Below the pieces are notes generated by a model that did no database searches, was not told the DNA's origin, and saw only the letters and a program-made list of their open reading frames with translations. From Chaetoceros tenuissimus (Eukaryota; Bacillariophyta; Thalassiosirophyceae; Chaetocerotales; Chaetocerotaceae), in the NCBI GenBank assembly GCA_021927905.1, contig BLLK01000074.1:248001-312000 (forward strand): DNA of 64,000 nucleotides, given 5' to 3'. Both the position numbers and the translations under genes were made by a program. Shown here in pieces: positions 1,884 through 54,780 of the stretch; positions within the stretch are counted from its first letter, which is position 1, and each line of letters opens with the position of its first letter.

Positions 1884-3382
1884 ATGGCTAGTAAACAAGA
1901 GAAGGATGTGTCTTCTTGGATACCATTCAGTCTATTCATCTGCACAAGTCTCATTAAATTATACAACACCAAAAACTCCAGTGTGAAATTCAAACAAGAA
2001 AATGAAACGGAATCAACTGACTTTGCTTCAAATGAAGAGACTCTGTATACATTGGCGAGAAGTAGACATCGTCTATCATTTGATCATACTCATGAACTGC
2101 AAACTAGGCAAGAGGACAATCAACACTTTGAACATTGCTCCAATCGATCCTCTCGATCTCTAAATACTTCACCGAGGTATAATCCTGAGTCACAAGATAT
2201 GGGAGCCTATGATAGCTTTCAAGATCTCATAGAGAGTAGATCATGTGATGACGATGATACTTGTCAATTAGAAGTAGAAACACGAAAGTCTACGTCCGTC
2301 GAGAAATATTTACACATGCTCAATGGTAGCTTTAGTTCCTTCCATGAAGATATAGATGAAAATGAAGAAGTCATTCAAGAAGAATTAAGTTTGCAAAATG
2401 TAAATACATCACAGACATCAAGGTTTTCACGGTGGAGATCTGCATATAATAAAATTATTATGCCGAATAAAGTGATTATGATTCGACATGGTCAGAGTGA
2501 AGGCAATGTGAATGAATCTATTTATGCCAAGAAACCTGATAATGAAATATGTTTGACAAGATTAGGTTGGGAACAAGCCAGAATGGCTGGAAAAGTACTT
2601 CGTGAAATATTGGATGAGAAAAATGATGGTTCTACTATACACTTTATCGTCAGTCCCTATGTGCGAACTATGGAGACGTTTCATGGTCTATTATCCGCTT
2701 GGTCAGATCCTGATGTTGATTTTGCACATATTCAAGATCCAGAGAAAAAGAAGCGTATGTGGTACAAGAAAATAAAATCATTTGGTATCACTTGGGCTGA
2801 AGATCCAAGAATACGCGAACAGGACTTTGGAAATTATCAAGATAGGGATACAATCAATATTGCAAAAAAGGAAAGACACAAATTCGGGGCCTTTTATTAT
2901 AGATTTCCCAATGGTGAGAGTGCGAGTGATGTATATGATAGAGCTTCGACATTTTTAGATTCTCTCTGGAGAAGTTTTGATGCAAATCGTAGTCAGCACT
3001 ATGTTTTAGGTACGTTTTTCAGAAAAAGATTCTACGATCAAGTTCCGCGTTTTCCCAGGCTGACTTTTTTATTTTCTCAGTAACCCATGGTATATCCGTA
3101 AGAGTGTTGCTTATGCGGTACTTCCGATACTCAGTAGATGAATTCCATATGCTGAGCAATCCCAAGAATTGTGAAATGGTTGTATTGGGACATGATGGCA
3201 AGGGAAAGTTGGATCTTCATGGTAGATGCGAGTTAGAACTTGCTGAGAAAGATACCACGGAAGGAACTGAAGATGCTTCTGATAGAATATCTGTAACAGG
3301 ATTCAAATTCTTCAAACGCTTACGTGTTCTCCCGAAAAAGTATCAGAATTTGAGATCAATACGGATCTCTTCGCAAGGGTAA
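1884..3382 (+). CDS. Histidine phosphatase (phosphoglycerate mutase-like), two exons
   Basis: Exons 1884-3009 and 3081-3382 are joined across a 71-bp GT-AG intron (GTACG to TCTCAG), giving 475 residues. The catalytic motif IRHGQSEGN lies at about residues 200-208, with the phospho-accepting His at 202. FIVSPYVRTMET follows, and the second catalytic His motif VTHG is created exactly across the splice junction, which proves the intron. The first 180 residues are polar and Ser/Asp/Glu-rich with no family match. The domain resembles eukaryotic phosphatases of the RHG superfamily with a KIKSFG segment after the first half; substrate unknown. The C-terminal tail after GHDGKG is charged. Start chosen as the first ATG of the long ORF. 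Confidence 0.85.
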
Positions 3383-4864: not shown

Positions 4865-5026
4865 ATCTCCACCACCTCATTGAAAGGCATCGAACAAGAT
4901 CGGTCATTGCACCCGTGTGATGTTGTAATTGTTTCAGGTACATAGTAATAAGGAGTTTTGAGAAACTTTAAGCTTGATGATCTCCGCCACCTACTTGAAA
5001 GGCATAGAACCAGATTGGTCATTGTA
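4865..5026. repeat. 47-bp imperfect direct repeat
   Basis: Units 4865-4911 and 4980-5026 align without gaps over 47 bp with 7 differences (both contain TTGAAAGGCAT and GGTCATTG). The spacer is 68 bp. Not coding in any consistent frame; looks like an old local duplication. Confidence 0.7.
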
Positions 5027-5801: not shown

Positions 5802-6548
5802 CTAAAGCAATGACATTTGCGAAAAAGAAAGCATGTTATCGCTAATAATTTGCGAGCCTTTTTGTGTAATAGCATCAGCTACTGGATTTCCCAATGTTTT
5901 CGCACTTTCGATGATGACTGGATCAAAATCGCCTGCATGTAAGTCAAGTTTCGTTCGGCTTTCTTGGCTCTTCTCCATAAATGCTTTTAATCTTTTATTG
6001 GTTTCTTTCATTTGCTTCTCCAGATCATCACTAGAGAGTAGGCAGAGGATCTTTGGGCGCTTGATCTTTTTAGTATTTGTCTTTCTGGTGTTTGTACTTG
6101 GTGGTATTTCAATCATTCTTGGTATATCTGGATTATTTATTTCACTCAATAATAAACCCATTTCTCTAACATCTTGATACAATGCTTCTTCATCTAGTTC
6201 TGAGGAGTTAACTTCTTGTTGGTACGCCGCGGGTGGTGCTATAATGAGCTCGTCATTCATCATGAGTGATGTTTCCTTCAATAACGCATCATGAAGATAT
6301 TCGTCAAATGAACCTCCAGAGCTTCTTTTCCTTTTTGAAAAACTAAAGCTATCCATTAAGATATCTCTGTTTTGATCATATCCATTGTCATTATCAAAGT
6401 AGCTTTCGCGAAAGTTCTTCTGTAGTTCATCATCCTCGTTTGCTTCGTCCTCTCCATTGTCACTAAAGTAACCTCCAAATAATGCATTTTCGAAGCTATC
6501 CTCATCTCCAAGATTCATCATGGAATCATAGGCTGAGAAATGTTTCAT
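5802..6548 (-). CDS. Acidic protein of unknown function
   Basis: Intact 248-residue ORF from ATG 6548. Residues 1-60 are strongly acidic with many Asp, Glu and Asn. A basic patch SKRKRSS follows at about 72. A second basic stretch, NTKKIKRPK at about 160, precedes a helical segment (residues about 172-200) rich in Lys, Glu and Gln that could form a coiled coil. No known domain is visible. An acidic N-terminus with basic patches would fit a nuclear protein, but that is inference. Single exon. Confidence 0.6.
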   Translation of the reverse strand: MKHFSAYDSMMNLGDEDSFENALFGGYFSDNGEDEANEDDELQKNFRESYFDNDNGYDQNRDILMDSFSFSKRKRSSGGSFDEYLHDALLKETSLMMNDELIIAPPAAYQQEVNSSELDEEALYQDVREMGLLLSEINNPDIPRMIEIPPSTNTRKTNTKKIKRPKILCLLSSDDLEKQMKETNKRLKAFMEKSQESRTKLDLHAGDFDPVIIESAKTLGNPVADAITQKGSQIISDNMLSFSQMSLL

Positions 6549-6905
6549 TGTGACGTGATGGAGACTTTGAAATACAGTTAATACTAAAGTATCGATCGAA
6601 ACCTAATAAGAAAACTGCTTCAATATGTAATAAAATGGGATGTGAAATGACAGTTTCGGAGTTTTGTAACCTAATCGTTGATCTGAATCAGATTCTGAAT
6701 CACCAATGAAATAGCCTAATTAGCTCAAGATTGTCGTCGATATTAGTAGTAAGACTTTTTAGGACCTAGTATTTTAGTATTTTCATACTATTTCATTCAA
6801 AAGTTTATTAAGAACATGAATTTCGTGAGAATATGAATATAAGCATGTTTTCCAAAGGATACAGTAATAATGTTCCAGAAGAAAGCATAAAGAATAATAA
6901 AAAGA
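6549..6905. other. Intergenic, nothing recognised
   Basis: 357 bp of AT-rich sequence between two minus-strand genes. It should carry the 3' end of the upstream gene at 6906 and the promoter of the gene ending at 6548. A TGACGTG word lies 4 bases before the latter's start (6552). Nothing else stands out. Confidence 0.5.
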
Positions 6906-8219
6906 TTACACTATGGTACTGTTGGGAGTGTCTAACTCCAAGTCAAACTTGTCTGTTACATATATGCCTTCGATACCGCGTTTCGGCCATGCCTCTGTTT
7001 GTAACTCCGTGAAAATTTGCAGCTCTCTTTCGGTGAGCGGCGTTGATAAGAAAGCTGCCCATAACCTCTCAAGGAAATGTTCCACAATACTTATATCACT
7101 GCCATTCTCGAGGATATTGATTACATGAGGCAAGTCTTGTTCGAGGAAATTCTTATTTTGTAGTATGTTTGTGCCAGGCAGTGCAAAAGCGCCTCCAAAA
7201 CAAACCTCCACAGCAACCATGTTTGGAAAATACCACTTTAAATCTTGTTTGATAAATTGACGAAGGTCCATGTATCCTGCAGTAAAATTATTTCCTCCTA
7301 CCATGTGCGTGGGATCATTGAATCTTACATATCTACGCAATGCAAATCCCTCCAACATGTATGGATGGTGATATGTAGAAGGCATTAAGGTCGCTCCAAC
7401 TCGTTGGATTCTATTAATACCACAAATGAAACGTCCTTTGGATGCAAAATTCCACATCTCTTCAAGACTTCTCCAGTGACTTCTACCAAGGATTCCAATA
7501 CCTCTAATATGAGTGTTCCCAGTCTGAGATTTTGTTGTATCTTTTAGGAAAAACACTACCTTTTTCCTAGCGGATTCTTCTGTCTCGTTTCTAATAAAGT
7601 TATTTATGTAATGGGCAACTCCCAAGTCGCAACCACCTTTGTTAATCAATGTATGTATTTGATATTCAATGCGTGAACGTTCATGATTCCTTTCATTTAA
7701 TTTCAGCTTGATCTTTTCTTCTATAAGTGTCTCTTGACCACATTTTGACATTACAATCAAATTTATTTGTTTGACATAGTCTGGAAGAAGTGCATTAATT
7801 TCATCAATAGTTTCTGTAAAATCTGTTTTGCAAAATGTAACTACGACATCTACAATTGAATGACTAGAAGGCATTTGAAAATTTTCTGGAGATATATAAC
7901 GACCTTTCCACAAGTCTAATAATTTCATAGTTTCATTTTGTATTTCCGAGAATGATAGGAGGTCTTGCTTGGTCATTTCATTTTGTTTTTGTTGTGGAGT
8001 TTCTGCTTGACGACTATTTATGGTAACTTCTGATTCACTTGTGTTATACAAGGCATAATAGGTCTCATTCGAAGCTGCAGACTTTGATACTTCAGATTTC
8101 TCCTTGACTGGCTTTGATACTAAAAGTTTCTCCTTAACTTTATACTCAGTTAATTCCTTGAGGAGAATTACGTTGGAGATGACCGCGAATACAAAGAATA
8201 TAACATGTATACCATGCAT
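6906..8219 (-). CDS. DUF3431-like membrane-anchored protein
   Basis: Intact 437-residue ORF. Residues 4-22 form a hydrophobic signal-anchor, followed by a Ser/Lys/Glu-rich stem to about residue 110. The globular part has the pattern of DUF3431-type proteins of fungi and algae: a strand VDVVVTFCKTDFTE, a second strand INLIVMSKCGQE, then KGGCDLGVAHYINNFI and a VVFFLKDTT strand, as in families that look like unusual glycosyltransferases. Sequons NET, NTS, NFT, NGS and NST suggest a secretory lumenal domain. It could act in Golgi glycan modification, but the family has no assigned reaction. No intron evident. Confidence 0.65.
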   Translation of the reverse strand: MHGIHVIFFVFAVISNVILLKELTEYKVKEKLLVSKPVKEKSEVSKSAASNETYYALYNTSESEVTINSRQAETPQQKQNEMTKQDLLSFSEIQNETMKLLDLWKGRYISPENFQMPSSHSIVDVVVTFCKTDFTETIDEINALLPDYVKQINLIVMSKCGQETLIEEKIKLKLNERNHERSRIEYQIHTLINKGGCDLGVAHYINNFIRNETEESARKKVVFFLKDTTKSQTGNTHIRGIGILGRSHWRSLEEMWNFASKGRFICGINRIQRVGATLMPSTYHHPYMLEGFALRRYVRFNDPTHMVGGNNFTAGYMDLRQFIKQDLKWYFPNMVAVEVCFGGAFALPGTNILQNKNFLEQDLPHVINILENGSDISIVEHFLERLWAAFLSTPLTERELQIFTELQTEAWPKRGIEGIYVTDKFDLELDTPNSTIV

Positions 8220-49820: not shown

Positions 49821-50247
49821 TTATGCATAGAAATGAATGTTGAGTGTATTGTTTTATTACTCTTGCGAATTTATATTTTGGAGTTTCAAATGGAAACACG
49901 TTTATGCAACTGCATCACCATCACTTTTATTTCAACTTTACATCATTATTTTTAAAGTAGGCTTCTCATCTGAAGAACTCAATAGCCATTTGAGATCTGA
50001 TGCAGATTGCCAGATGACAATGACACCGATGACTCATCACTCCCGCAAACCCTCATCACAGCTCATCACTCTTAAATCTACGTAGTACGTACGTAGAAGA
50101 GAAGCATCAAAAAAGTTGTCCCCCGAAAAAAGAGAAAAGAGAAGACCGGGAAGCGGGAAGAGTGAGTTTACTTCTTACTTCCTCGTACGAGTACAAGGAA
50201 GAAAAGTAAATTAGATCAAAAAGATCAACTTATCTAAAATAAGCAAG

Positions 50248-50339
50248 ATGACTTTCAGTTCATCGATACGAGGTGCTTTGATAGCAAGATGCGTCACAGC
50301 TGGCGTCTCTACCTTGTGTTCCTTTCTTCTAGTTGTCTT
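50248..50339 (+). pseudogene. GPCR-like gene, piece 1 (first membrane helix)
   Basis: ATG 50248 opens a frame coding for 30 residues that form a single membrane helix (GVSTLCSFLLVVF) and stop making sense at the repeat starting 50340. After the codon GTC TT, the continuation (T ATT TCG CAG, then SETGLKSPYSRIIFG) is found on the minus strand from 52528. This is the missing first helix of the receptor whose pieces 2 and 3 are at 51731-52528 and 53693-54358. Host gene, now disrupted. Confidence 0.75.
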
Positions 50340-50382
50340 CATCCAAAGTGGGTCCAGCGCCAAGTGTACCCTGGAGCGCCAT
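50340..50382. repeat. Terminal inverted repeat, left
   Basis: Begins CATCCAAAGTG, contains GGTCCAGCGCCAAGTGTACC, then CTGGAGCGCCATT. About 31 of the first 35 bases match 52529-52563. In the present order both copies face the same way; they were inverted before the 51731-53692 inversion. Confidence 0.85.
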
Positions 50383-50621
50383 TATTTACTTAACGTTCCA
50401 GCGCCATTCTAGTGTTTTTAGCTTAGTTGGTTAATATCCCTAGGTAGGAGTTTTGTACCAGCAGCGCCATCAAAATAACCAGCTCCATTTTTATGGCGCT
50501 GAGCTTTTGCACATAATGGCGCTGGAACCTACATATTTCACACGATTCAACCAAATTAGCTTTTGAGAGAAAACACTCTCCGACACGATTGGAAGCTATA
50601 TTAGTGCGATTGGAAGCTATC

Positions 50622-50767
50622 TTAGTACTTACCAAACGTCTACAAAAACCGATATTCGCTCATCACATTTCTAAATGTACCATTCCAAATTGCCATGTTA
50701 GTACTTATTTAACCTCTACAAAAACCGATATTCGCTCATCACATTTCTAAATGTACCATTCCAAATT
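50622..50767. repeat. 76-bp-period tandem repeat inside the transposon end
   Basis: A 52-bp block (starting CTACAAAAACCGATATTCGC) is identical at 50640-50691 and 50716-50767, with TTAGTACTTA before each. Just upstream a GATTGGAAGCTAT word is also doubled at a 21-bp period (50588, 50609). It lies between the left TIR and the 3' end of the element's gene. Confidence 0.9.
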
Positions 50768-50803
50768 TGAATCTTATTACTAGTCGTTTATTTATTACTA
50801 CGA

Positions 50804-51730
50804 TTATACATAGCGCCTTTTTTGTTTCATACCTTGTACAGCTATGTAGTATCCCGACTCAACTCTTCCACTAAAGGTGCTTCTCTGTCTTTTACGTGAT
50901 TTCACCTGACTTTTGTTTTTATATAGATAATCATCCTCAAACTTCACACTTTCATCAAGAATTCTACTGTTTTCAACCTCCTCATATTTACGATTGTAGT
51001 ATGTTGCACATGTAAGCGTATCATATATTGATTTTGTCGAACAGAGTTTTGCACCAATTGGTTCATGATCTTCTCTAAACTTTGGACGATGACGCGATTC
51101 TTTTGATATCACAATCTCCTTTCTCCCTGCTTTAGACCATAATTGAAATCCTAGTTCAACAACAACGTATGCAAAAGCTTCATCAGAAACTGTCAGAATT
51201 TCCGAAATCTTCATCCTCTTTTTTTGTTCACAAAAAACTCTTTTACGGACCGTTTTACAAGCAAAACATTCTAGAAAATAGACATACGCTTTCTTTGCTA
51301 TTTCTCCCAATTTTTCATCCGTGAAATCTGATCTGTAATTCGTCAGACTCTCACCTTTGTTCCACTTATACTGAGTATATATCAAGAAATTTTGAAACTC
51401 AGTTTTAGCTTCATCGAATTCCGGACACTCCGCTCCCATATTCTTTACGTAATCCACAAATTCTGTTTTCTGTAGCAAATAATCTAAAAAACAAATGAGC
51501 TTTTTCGAAGATTCAAAGAACAATATATATATATATCTATACCTTACCTTGTACAAACGAAGCCTTCATTCCGTCAACTACAGAATTTCTAATATTTACA
51601 AACGTCTTTTTGACTGTCCTTCCATGTGTCTGCCAAAACGTAACTAGATTTGTTACACTCAGTGAATCCCGACCAAGCAATGGTAGGCCAAGTTCTACAC
51701 TAAGATACTCAAGGCATCCTTCACACATTT
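50804..51730 (-). pseudogene. Transposon-borne gene, 3' part (unknown protein)
   Basis: Coding on the minus strand from the breakpoint at 51730: exon to 51548, 64-bp intron (51484-51547, GTAAGG to TTTTAG), exon 51483-50804. About 287 residues: EYLSVELGLPLLGRDSL, VTFWQTHGRTVKK, then after the splice a helical region with EIAKKAYVYFLECFACKT, VELGFQLWSKAGRKE, and a basic C-terminus with KSRKRQRS. No known domain; the basic tail would suit DNA binding or nuclear entry. Its natural 5' part is at 53019-53692, on the other strand; here it has been joined out of frame to receptor piece 2. Confidence 0.6.
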
Positions 51731-52528
51731 GGATAGCACAAATAGAGAGGATTGAAATATGGCTGACTTGGTAAGCACAAGTTTCAAGGCCTGTTTCTCG
51801 TAACGTTGGAATGCGGAAAGCTCTTCTTGCTGGTTCTGTTCTGGCTCCTTATTTTCATCAACCTCTACCTCTTGAGGACTATTATCTGATTTCTCATCAG
51901 GACTATCATCTGTTTCTTTTTCTTCTGCTTTCTTCGCGGTTCCCTGTTTTGTCGGCTGGAGCTGCTTTTCGGATGTGTATACATGTAGAGTAAATGCTCC
52001 CAAAACAGTGAGCAATGCAACAAAAATAGCAGCCAATGGTAAAACTATCAAAATAGCTCCTACGAGGTGTGCTCCTTTGCCTCGAATACATTCAATTTCA
52101 TCATTTGTATTACATCCAGTTGGAGATGGACCCAAATAACACATTGCACCTCTTCGCATCGGATTGATCATTCCCTTTCCTGCCGCAAGAGAAGGTACTA
52201 CTATAGAATACATCCAAATGATTATATGTAACCATTTCTCTTGCCCATTTGCAAAGTCTTGTGGTTTGACCTTATACTTGACTCGTTTCAGAAAATAATA
52301 GGTAAGGTGTAATGTATACAATGGGACAGCGAGAGAACCTGCGATAGTGAAGAAGCCGACTGCACTGCAACTCTGTACATTGCCTCTACCAAAGATATGC
52401 TGAGGATCTACTGGAGCAGCGAATGGAGAAGCAAATATTCCAATACTTTGAAGCACGTCGGCAATAGAAAGACCGAAGATGATTCTACTGTAAGGACTTT
52501 TGAGCCCTGTCTCTGACTGCGAAATAAA
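51731..52528 (-). pseudogene. GPCR-like gene, piece 2 (helices 2 to half of 6)
   Basis: Minus-strand coding from 52528 to 51731, about 265 residues. Helix 2 YSRIIFGLSIADVLQSIGI, helix 3 CSAVGFFTIAGSLAVPLYTL with the extracellular Cys, helix 4 HIIIWMYSIVVPSLAAG, helix 5 LIVLPLAAIFVALLTVLGAF, a long acidic/Gln-rich third loop, then the start of helix 6 (KSAIFQSSLFVLS). The layout is that of the cAMP-receptor-like GPCRs known in diatoms and Dictyostelium. The frame breaks off at 51731, where transposon DNA begins. Signalling partner and ligand unknown. Confidence 0.75.
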
Positions 52529-52568
52529 CATCCAAATGTGGTCCAGCGCCAAGTGTACCATGGAGCTG
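52529..52568. repeat. Terminal inverted repeat, right
   Basis: Partner of 50340-50382 (CATCCAAATGT, GGTCCAGCGCCAAGTGTACC, ATGGAGC). It abuts receptor piece 2 exactly where piece 1 should join. Confidence 0.85.
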
Positions 52569-53018
52569 CATTTTCATGTCAACAGCGCCATATTTTTGTC
52601 TTCTTGGAGCATTGACACGTGTCAATAGGTATAAAAAAAAACATCTACCTGCGCGTATCCTACATGGTCCTGGAGGATAATAAAAATGGCGCTGGAGGAA
52701 TATAATCTCTAACCTCCTCCCTTCTTTCCTCTTTCTATCTTCTTTCTAACCCAAATACACAAGACTCAAGCATAAATTACACTGATTTTCTGCTCTCATC
52801 CGTTGAACTTTATTTTTACTCATTTTTCTATTTGGACACGCACCTTGATTTCACTTACTATTATGTTGTTCTTCTTCTAGCTCACATATTGCACTTTTCT
52901 TTTTATTTCAATTTCATAATCATCCCGATTGATTCTTGTGACCGCTTATCGTTAGCACCATCTAACCTTGAGTGTCCTAGTTTCCACTCTGGTACCTTCT
53001 ATCAAAAACAGCAATATA
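52569..53018. other. Transposon subterminal region and leader of its gene
   Basis: 450 bp with CAGCGCCAT (52583) and its inverse ATGGCGCTG (52686), a palindrome-like GACACGTGTC at 52615-52624, and a pyrimidine-rich stretch before the gene start. Confidence 0.6.
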
Positions 53019-53692
53019 ATGCCAGCTTCATCGAATTCAAACAAACGAAGATCAAACTCTGCTTGTCAAACTCAAGGAACCCGATGTATCTTCACCGCAT
53101 CTGAAAGCTGCTCTCTCTTGTCGAAGCATGTTATTACAACACGCATTTCTCTAAACGAAGCAAATCTTCTTCACCCTCAAGAGAATCCACAAATTTATAT
53201 CGAATGCAATTCCTTTGAAAAATATAACAAAAGTTCTCTTGTTGCATTTTCAACTTCCAAAGATAAGAAGACAAATACCAAAAACAACTGGCACCTTGGT
53301 GCTGTCTTATGTCTTCATCCAGAAAAGGTCGTAATCGCAAGAATTAAACTCAACACAGACAATTACTTTGCAGAATCAACTCATTCATTCAACATCATCA
53401 ATGGGGATTACGTCGAGGTCATTTATTTGAACATAGTATCTCCATCTTCTATTGCAGAAGACGGATTTATATCTTCTTCCTCCGATGGACCTTCATGCAT
53501 TAATATATCCAACTTTTCCTCGATCTCTGTCCCAGACATATCCAAATTACCAAAAATCTTTCAAATCCAAGAATGTAAATTTAGTGATCGAAACTTCCCT
53601 TTCCCTCGGCTAGTCTTTGACACTCATCACAAAACTAGAAAGTCATCACTTGCACATCCTAACATGAAGCAAATATATTGCACTGATAACCA
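53019..53692 (+). pseudogene. Transposon-borne gene, 5' part (unknown protein)
   Basis: Starts at ATG 53019 (MPASSNSNKRRSNS), about 224 residues, ending near the breakpoint at 53692. Polar and Ser-rich at the start, then HVITTRISLNEANLLHP, a beta-rich stretch (WHLGAVLCLHPEKVVIARI, NIINGDYVEVIYLNIV), a Ser-rich linker and FPRLVFDTHHKTRKS. The last codons (TGC ACT GAT AAC C) run in frame into AA ATG TGT GAA at 51730 on the other strand, so this is the missing front of 50804-51730. No known domain. Confidence 0.6.
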
Positions 53693-54358
53693 TATGTATA
53701 TATTTTTGCATTTTTACTTGTGTATTCTGGGCCTTTGCTTGGGATCGGTTCAGGCATGATTCCTAACGAGTTAGTCGTTTGGTGGTTTTCCGTGTTTTAT
53801 CCTCTTGGAGGTGAGACCCGATTGATTCATGTTCATTTCACTTTTGCATACAAAGCAAAGCAAAATGTCGATTTTCTCATCCCAATCATGTTTTCTATAA
53901 CAGGACTTTTCAATATTTTGATCTATACTCGACCAAAAGTACAGGCTCTAAGAAAGATTATAGATATATCTAGATTCATGGGTTTCATTGTAGTTGTTGT
54001 AGCTGGTGGAGAAACTCCAAATGTCATGGATTATATATCTGCTGACCATCAACAAGATGATGACAATCATTCAATATCTCCATCTAGAAATTCCGCTCTA
54101 GAAAGAGTCTGCAAAGCATTAGGGTACGATTTTGGGGATGACTTTGACATTGATGCAGAAGTGCAACGAGTCATGAGAGGAGACTATGGTGAAGATAGGA
54201 ATGCTATCCAGAATGCGCGCATCAGTAATGAAAATTCTAGTGTTTTTGTGGAATCAAATGCGAAGATATACAACTCTGGAAAAGAGAGTGGAAAAGACGG
54301 TCTTTCATCTTGCCTTTCTATTACAAATGAAACTTTTCAGGATGATAATGCTGCTTAA
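53693..54358 (+). pseudogene. GPCR-like gene, piece 3 (end of helix 6, helix 7, tail)
   Basis: Coding from 53693 (YVYIFAFLLVYSGPLLG, second half of helix 6), then helix 7 NELVVWWFSVFYPLGG, a 93-bp in-frame intron (53811-53903, GTGAGA to TAACAG), and LFNILIYTRPKVQALRK, the conserved end of helix 7 in this receptor family. A cytosolic tail of about 130 residues rich in Asp, Asn and Ser follows. It has no start codon or signal of its own: upstream in frame there are two stops just before the breakpoint. It continues receptor piece 2. Confidence 0.75.
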
Positions 54359-54780
54359 ATCATTCAAAACAATACCTATATCAAGTTATCGGTAGTTTTT
54401 ATTCGTGACCTTATTGTAGGTATGAACACATACGTTTTTCTAGAGATTGCTTGATTTTGGTAATATTTACATCATCATAATTGCTCTAAATTTTCACTAT
54501 AAGTTGATCTGAAACAAAAGCTGTCAAAAGCTGGAGACGTTATTAAAATTACCAATGACGCGAAACGCAATAGCCATTTGCAGGATATAAAGCACATGCC
54601 AGATAACAATGACCATTCATTCACTCATTCTCACATAGAAGATAGAAGAGAAGAAAGAAAAAACGAAGAAAACAATTGATACTTTTACCTTATTAGTAAT
54701 GCCAACAAGTCTGCAAAGATACATCAACAAACTAAAGGTAAAAATAAATACTTACTGAATAGTTACATCTCTTAGCAACC
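54359..54780. other. Intergenic, nothing recognised
   Basis: 422 bp, AT-rich; promoter and leader of the next gene. Confidence 0.45.

Follow-up and report, generated by a model that had tools for sequence, protein, structure and literature searches.

A receptor gene of the diatom Chaetoceros tenuissimus carries a transposon insertion flanked by a 2-bp target duplication, and the locus as assembled contains two further junctions at which the pieces are joined out of frame, with the middle of the transposon missing in comparison with both of its relatives. The sequence of events favored by parsimony is a transposon insertion, followed by breaks, loss of the transposon middle and inverted rejoining of a fragment, and a probability of about 0.78 is given to this history. 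The window, that is, the whole stretch of 64,000 nucleotides analyzed (C58:248001-312000), lies in a 41.0-Mb assembly of 68 contigs, in which a protein on contig C38 is CTEN210_12761 of C. tenuissimus. The initial annotation of the window had proposed that a transposon entered a GPCR gene and that an inversion came after it. The scrambled order of the pieces is real as assembled, with receptor pieces on the plus, minus and plus strands and two non-receptor pieces between them, and a single inversion was the right core idea. The proposal is supported by identical or near-identical copies of the transposon and by receptor relatives that are continuous through both joins, but it has to be amended in that the transposon middle was also lost. 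The features of the locus are as follows (window coordinates):

50248..50339, plus strand: receptor piece 1, beginning with the start codon and extending into helix 1 (MTFSSSIRGALIARCVTAGVSTLCSFLLVVF)
50338..50339: TT, left copy of the 2-bp target-site duplication, from flank comparison
50340..51741, minus strand: left part of the Plavaka-like transposon, with the left terminal repeat, the subterminal region and the 3' part of gene B on the minus strand
51741..51742: junction 1, between transposon interior and receptor helix 6, with 0 shared bases
51742..52528, minus strand: receptor piece 2, inverted, with helices 2-5, the third intracellular loop and the first half of helix 6
52527..52528: TT (AA on the plus strand), right copy of the target-site duplication, moved along with the inversion
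52529..53697, plus strand: right part of the transposon, inverted, with the right terminal repeat and the 5' part of gene A
53697..53699: junction 2, a T common to both sides, then AT, a repeat of the end of receptor piece 2
53698..54358, plus strand: receptor piece 3, with the remainder of helix 6, helix 7 and the C-terminal tail
53811..53903, plus strand: probable GT-AG intron of 93 bp inside receptor piece 3

The receptor frame is broken at each join. Reading on from piece 1 leads into the transposon end, with a stop at 50412; reading on from piece 2 leads into transposon sequence in a frame other than that of gene B, with a stop at 51695. The reading frame of gene A, which begins in the window at 53019, enters receptor piece 3 in a frame other than that of the receptor and meets a stop at 53759. 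Both chimeras are broken, as had been proposed, each being out of frame at the true joins, and the allele is presumably without function.

The joins were placed by comparison with two other copies of the transposon, C14 and C38. Window positions 50338-51741 are identical to C38 (1404/1404) and to C14 (1402/1402), and positions 52527-53697 are identical to C38 (1171/1171) and differ from C14 by 1 mismatch in 1170, so that the two window pieces together have 1 mismatch in 2572 bases against C14. Past both window breaks, C14 and C38 run on, with 1760 bp (C14) and 5120 bp (C38) that have no window counterpart. Judged from these identities, the true breakpoints are at 51741/51742 and about 53697/53698; those proposed earlier, 51730/51731 and 53692/53693, fall short by 11 and 5 bases of the points to which identity with C38 extends. 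Common to C14 and C38 are 913 bp adjoining break a (that of the left part) and 99 bp adjoining break b, and the ancestral element therefore very likely contained them. What stood in the middle otherwise differs between C14 and C38, and the window copy shows internal loss with both ends retained. Relocation of the middle to another site was considered and rejected, as the search found it only in C38, with parts in C14.

In C38, the right piece corresponds to the start of gene A, an open frame (L035 977-2947), and the left piece to the end of gene B, represented by two overlapping frames (6312-7043 and 7015-7776) that were interpreted as the exons of a single gene. Between these genes, the opposite strand has two open frames. 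The gene A product is found elsewhere in public contigs as a 635-aa protein, P0082, with 99% identity. As the pieces fall in two genes of the C14 and C38 elements, a single second gene is not supported, and the in-frame continuity on which it had been based, one of four agreements put forward as independent, is a coincidence. The window copy contains parts of genes A and B only, with no transposase, and is non-autonomous and rearranged. The start of gene A occurs at three places in the genome, the window included; the other two retain the sequence adjoining the breaks, and in neither of them was the deletion of the window copy seen.

When one TT is dropped, 51742 is joined to 53700 and the 93-bp intron is removed, the rebuilt receptor has 480 residues and 0 internal stops. 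Its helix-1 and helix-6 joins align gap-free with P0011, P0014, P0012, P0013, P0015 and P0017, six relatives chosen from 72 listed matches, and the nearest relatives among the candidates scored are 73-74% identical to it. The residues that the inferred intron would encode are absent from four full-length relatives (P0012, P0013, P0015, and P0017). P0013 has two additional residues two positions past the helix-1 join. Helix 6 of P0011 served as the reference for a scan of 1665 join pairs, in which the four top pairs encode an identical protein (a score of 30 out of 35), and one of these, 51742/53700, agrees with the transposon boundary. The claim that helix 6 becomes continuous at CTATCC/TATGTA was not confirmed: this join of the initial annotation gives SSLFVLSYVYIFAF in helix 6, six residues more than the SSLYIFAF, or a sequence near it, of the relatives. 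Piece 2 has matches at no fewer than 151 places in the C. tenuissimus genome, the closest non-self match having 62% identity among the listed matches that span nearly all of the piece. No uninverted or empty allele of the receptor locus was found, the best non-window protein reaching 74% among the 7998 candidates scored, those sharing most words.

The receptor family is predicted to have the seven-helix GPCR fold, on the evidence of a model of the relative P0012 (mean pLDDT 79.4), for which there were 1774 PDB matches at E up to 10, each of the 50 listed being a GPCR or a complex that contains one. Pfam profiles point weakly in the same direction. In a 7tm_1 scan of six relatives, P0027 lay above the cut-off (33.0 vs 30.5), P0012, P0019, P0026 and P0061 lay below it, and P0013 had no 7tm_1 match; window receptor pieces 2 and 3 had no 7tm match in the Pfam scan. 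The receptor appears to belong to the same large family as the rhodopsin-like 7TM receptors of C. tenuissimus, the window member being disrupted.

The two repeats of about 40 bp at 50340 and 52529, which are 86% identical over 44 nt and lie in the same orientation, had already been recognized, and they are the two ends of a transposon family. A 21-base piece of the transposon end was found at 24 genome sites with up to 3 mismatches, compared with 0 for a reversed-pattern control, and by position these sites form nine inverted pairs, one direct pair and four single ends. The direct pair is that of the window, the only one of 10, and this supports the inversion account. The TT duplication described earlier is indeed a 2-bp target-site duplication, and all 10 paired copies, window included, have one when the flanks are judged by eye (C14 TG, C38 TT, C17 TT, C32 AA, C36 TA, C40 TG, C58b CT, C59 TA, C34 TA, and window TT). 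The copies that carry the genes seen in the window are 7.69 kb (C38) and 4.33 kb (C14) long; further forms of the family measure 3.56 and 0.75 kb. Five copies of 3559 bp are 0-2 bases apart, and the family has therefore been mobile recently. Between C14 and C38 there are a 433-bp gap and 195 bp in place of 3.1 kb of C38, and a short telomere-like stretch is present at the start of the C38 transposase part.

The family is best described as Plavaka-like (CMC group) and not as proven Plavaka. PlavakaB of Agaricomycotina fungi (CMC/CMCT group) is described in a passage of PMC12730594 as having 2- or 3-bp target duplications and CATCA..TGATG ends. The diatom family likewise has 2-bp target duplications. 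Its ends are similar in that CATC..GATG is found in both, but they read CATCC..GGATG, with four of the five terminal bases in agreement. The C-terminal half of the transposase appears homologous: it contains the H(3)H pair, and one E is invariant. The host, on the other hand, is a diatom, the window copy is without transposase and the C38 copy has the C-terminal part only. Of nine homologues of the C38 transposase fragment, including that of C38 itself, four have a precomputed PF18759 assignment; on re-scanning of four homologues, P0005 passed (29.2 vs 26.3), P0006 fell just below (25.9), and P0003 and P0004 had no match. The C38 transposase frame itself had no Pfam match, and in a scan of five transposon frames four were matchless and gene A had four weak matches, all below the cut-off. 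Plavaka transposases are marked by DDE catalytic residues, with C(2)C and H(3-4)H lying between the second D and the E. In the alignment, where these residues were identified by eye, H266 and H270 of H(3)H and E290 are invariant in 8/8 rows, and the D of GDTEGG in C38 occupies the position expected of the second D. Both cysteines of C(2)C occur in three of the seven covering rows (P0003, P0004, and P0007), C38 and three others being without the first. The N-terminal part in which the first catalytic D is expected is missing from C38, and P0009 matches at 458-495 only.

More distant transposase relatives are present in C13 (27-35%, with one TGA inside a match) and in C52 (five pieces, three with an internal stop). 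They were rejected as members of the same family, since the stretches examined contained no end that matched over 22 bases with 7 or fewer mismatches. No complete close transposase was found in the assembly, despite the near-identical copies; its source may lie in unassembled sequence or on the other haplotype, or may have been lost. A search of literature titles and abstract openings, which did not extend to transposon databases, found no report of Plavaka in a diatom; the passage seen in PMC12633428 concerns a green alga.

The history favored here begins with the entry of a Plavaka-like element into helix 1 of a member of the GPCR family, with duplication of TT. Both ends still lie beside receptor target sequence, which indicates that the insertion came first and that the ends did not move again. 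Later breaks would have fallen at two sites within the transposon and at one in the codons of helix 6, whereupon the transposon middle was lost and a 1.96-kb fragment, which runs from break b to the helix-6 break and comprises the right part of the transposon and receptor helices 2-6, was put back in the reverse orientation. Loss and inversion probably occurred as one event; the repair was presumably end joining that used 0-1 bp of homology and filled in 2 bp (AT) at the break in the receptor. The CC/CCA microhomology with one extra A that had been reported does not apply to the true junctions, which share 0 bases (junction 1) and 1 base (junction 2, T). With the join 51742/53700, the AT at 53698-53699 is left over, the T at 53697 being common with the transposon, and AT, or TAT if the shared T is counted, flanks the receptor break on either side. 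Movement of the ends, or recombination between two inverted copies, was rejected as the cause of the inversion, since both ends still adjoin their TT flanks and the break in the receptor lies against internal, not terminal, transposon sequence. A 13-mer resembling the terminal repeat near break a (51723-51735, 2 mismatches) was also rejected as a cutting site, the break lying 6 bp outside it; one such 13-mer is found in the body of C38, compared with 0.075 on average in 40 base shuffles, a test picked after the fact.

The clean inversion of 51731-53692 in the initial annotation, with one second gene and microhomology at the breaks, gives the order and orientation of the pieces as they are, and the frames align by eye at its breakpoints. 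It is nevertheless almost certainly incorrect, as C14 and C38 separate the pieces by 1.76 or 5.12 kb, gene A belongs to a separate protein and helix 6 would gain residues. An assembly artefact, in which the inverted order stems from a chimeric nanopore read or from an error in haplotype merging and the locus is a plain transposon insertion, is improbable. According to a passage of PMC8613185, the published genome of strain NIES-3715 (41 Mb), from which the window probably derives, is a MiSeq/MinION hybrid assembly made with MaSuRCA and merged to one haplotype with HaploMerger2, with an estimated heterozygosity of 1.56%. Against an artefact, the two junctions overlap by 0 and 1 bp, show a 2-bp receptor repeat and resemble repair, and about 1 kb of transposon or more (the 913 + 99 bp common to C14 and C38) would also have to disappear exactly at the junctions. 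Joins made by an assembler are expected to share longer sequence. Two separate events, in which a copy already without its middle was inserted and a later inversion broke at the old scar, are very unlikely: copies with altered interiors do exist in the family (C14, C38, and the 3.56-kb and 0.75-kb forms), but the second break would have to hit the scar within a base or so in about 2.6 kb, and neither of the other two places with the start of gene A has the deletion.

A special case of the favored history is failed local transposition, in which the element was excised, the gap was partly refilled from the sister copy, an aborted re-insertion left a 2-nt staggered break in helix 6 and the freed fragment was rejoined inverted. 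This is unlikely, albeit the most plausible of the alternatives. The derivatives of abortive gap repair known for Ac/Ds and PIF/Harbinger are alike in keeping their ends, losing the middle and occasionally having an internal inversion, which a passage of PMC2213677 attributes to abortive gap repair in a PIF/Harbinger family; the inversion here, however, also includes 787 bp of host gene. The helix-6 repeat of 2 bp (3 with the shared T) has the length of the family's target duplication, and the interiors of the window, C14 and C38 copies all differ, which is in line with interrupted gap repair and is not proof of it. On the other side, no transposon end is joined at helix 6, this is one event only, and a 2-nt fill-in is common in end joining of any kind. 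It is likewise unlikely that a transposase-made break drove the inversion. On this reading, the excised element would have attempted re-insertion at a distance of 787 bp within the gene without success, and the joint repair of its half-refilled donor gap and a 2-nt staggered target break would have inverted the intervening piece. If true, small host-gene inversions coupled to internal loss would arise repeatedly from this family, in addition to the footprints and deletion derivatives that are usual.

On the favored history of insertion, breakage and inverted rejoining, this locus would be a base-resolved case of a young transposon insertion that became a compound rearrangement within a receptor gene and that can be read against near-identical copies elsewhere in the genome, and a clear trace of genome damage that is otherwise ordinary in kind. 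It also carries a warning that apparent in-frame fusions, judged by eye across such breaks, can be accidental. For the diatom itself, the analysis describes a recently mobile transposon family that is Plavaka-like.

Sequences belonging to, or resembling, the Plavaka-like transposon that splits the receptor gene lie both in the window and elsewhere in the assembly, and those considered here, together with one pair of short blocks flanking the receptor, are as follows.

Window 50616-50767: two 76-bp units in tandem, inside the transposon
Window 49976-49992 and 54564-54580: two 17-bp blocks that resemble each other
L035 (C38:1474700-1483500), about 4917-4939, in element orientation about 3302-3324: telomere-like stretch
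L044 2597-2630 (C18:84096 onward): single transposon-family end
C29:212578 (L063) and C29:297680 (L064): two single transposon ends, in opposite orientation
L061 (C13:1300500-1310400): long open frame of 1243 aa
C32, C36, C40, C58:635516 and C59 (L037-L041): five 3559-bp transposon copies

The 76-bp tandem units are 92% alike, and the pair is also found in the C14 and C38 copies of the transposon. The 17-bp blocks, which agree at 16/17 positions, may represent a promoter element common to the receptor and the next open frame downstream; one block lies upstream of each.

In the C38 copy, the telomere-like stretch is placed where this copy diverges from C14, immediately ahead of the truncated transposase frame, and may mark a break that was patched with telomere repeat. 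Within it, roughly two and a half units of TTAGGG run up against CCCTAA.

The single ends on C29, with 85 kb between them and their orientations opposed, match at 94% over about 320 bp, mostly the element's end. Because the match also takes in some 21 bp of flank common to both, the pair is perhaps an inverted duplication. The single end on C18 stands just upstream of a different GPCR gene, with a few bases separating it from that gene's likely start codon.

The C13 open frame, which has a TGA inside one match, is a distant relative of the Plavaka-like transposase, and the end type of the transposon family was not found in the L061 stretch around it.

The five 3559-bp copies show only 0-2 differences in any pairwise comparison, and in the one copy checked (C40) the largest frame is ≤96 aa. 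These copies are a non-autonomous form of the transposon that has recently spread.
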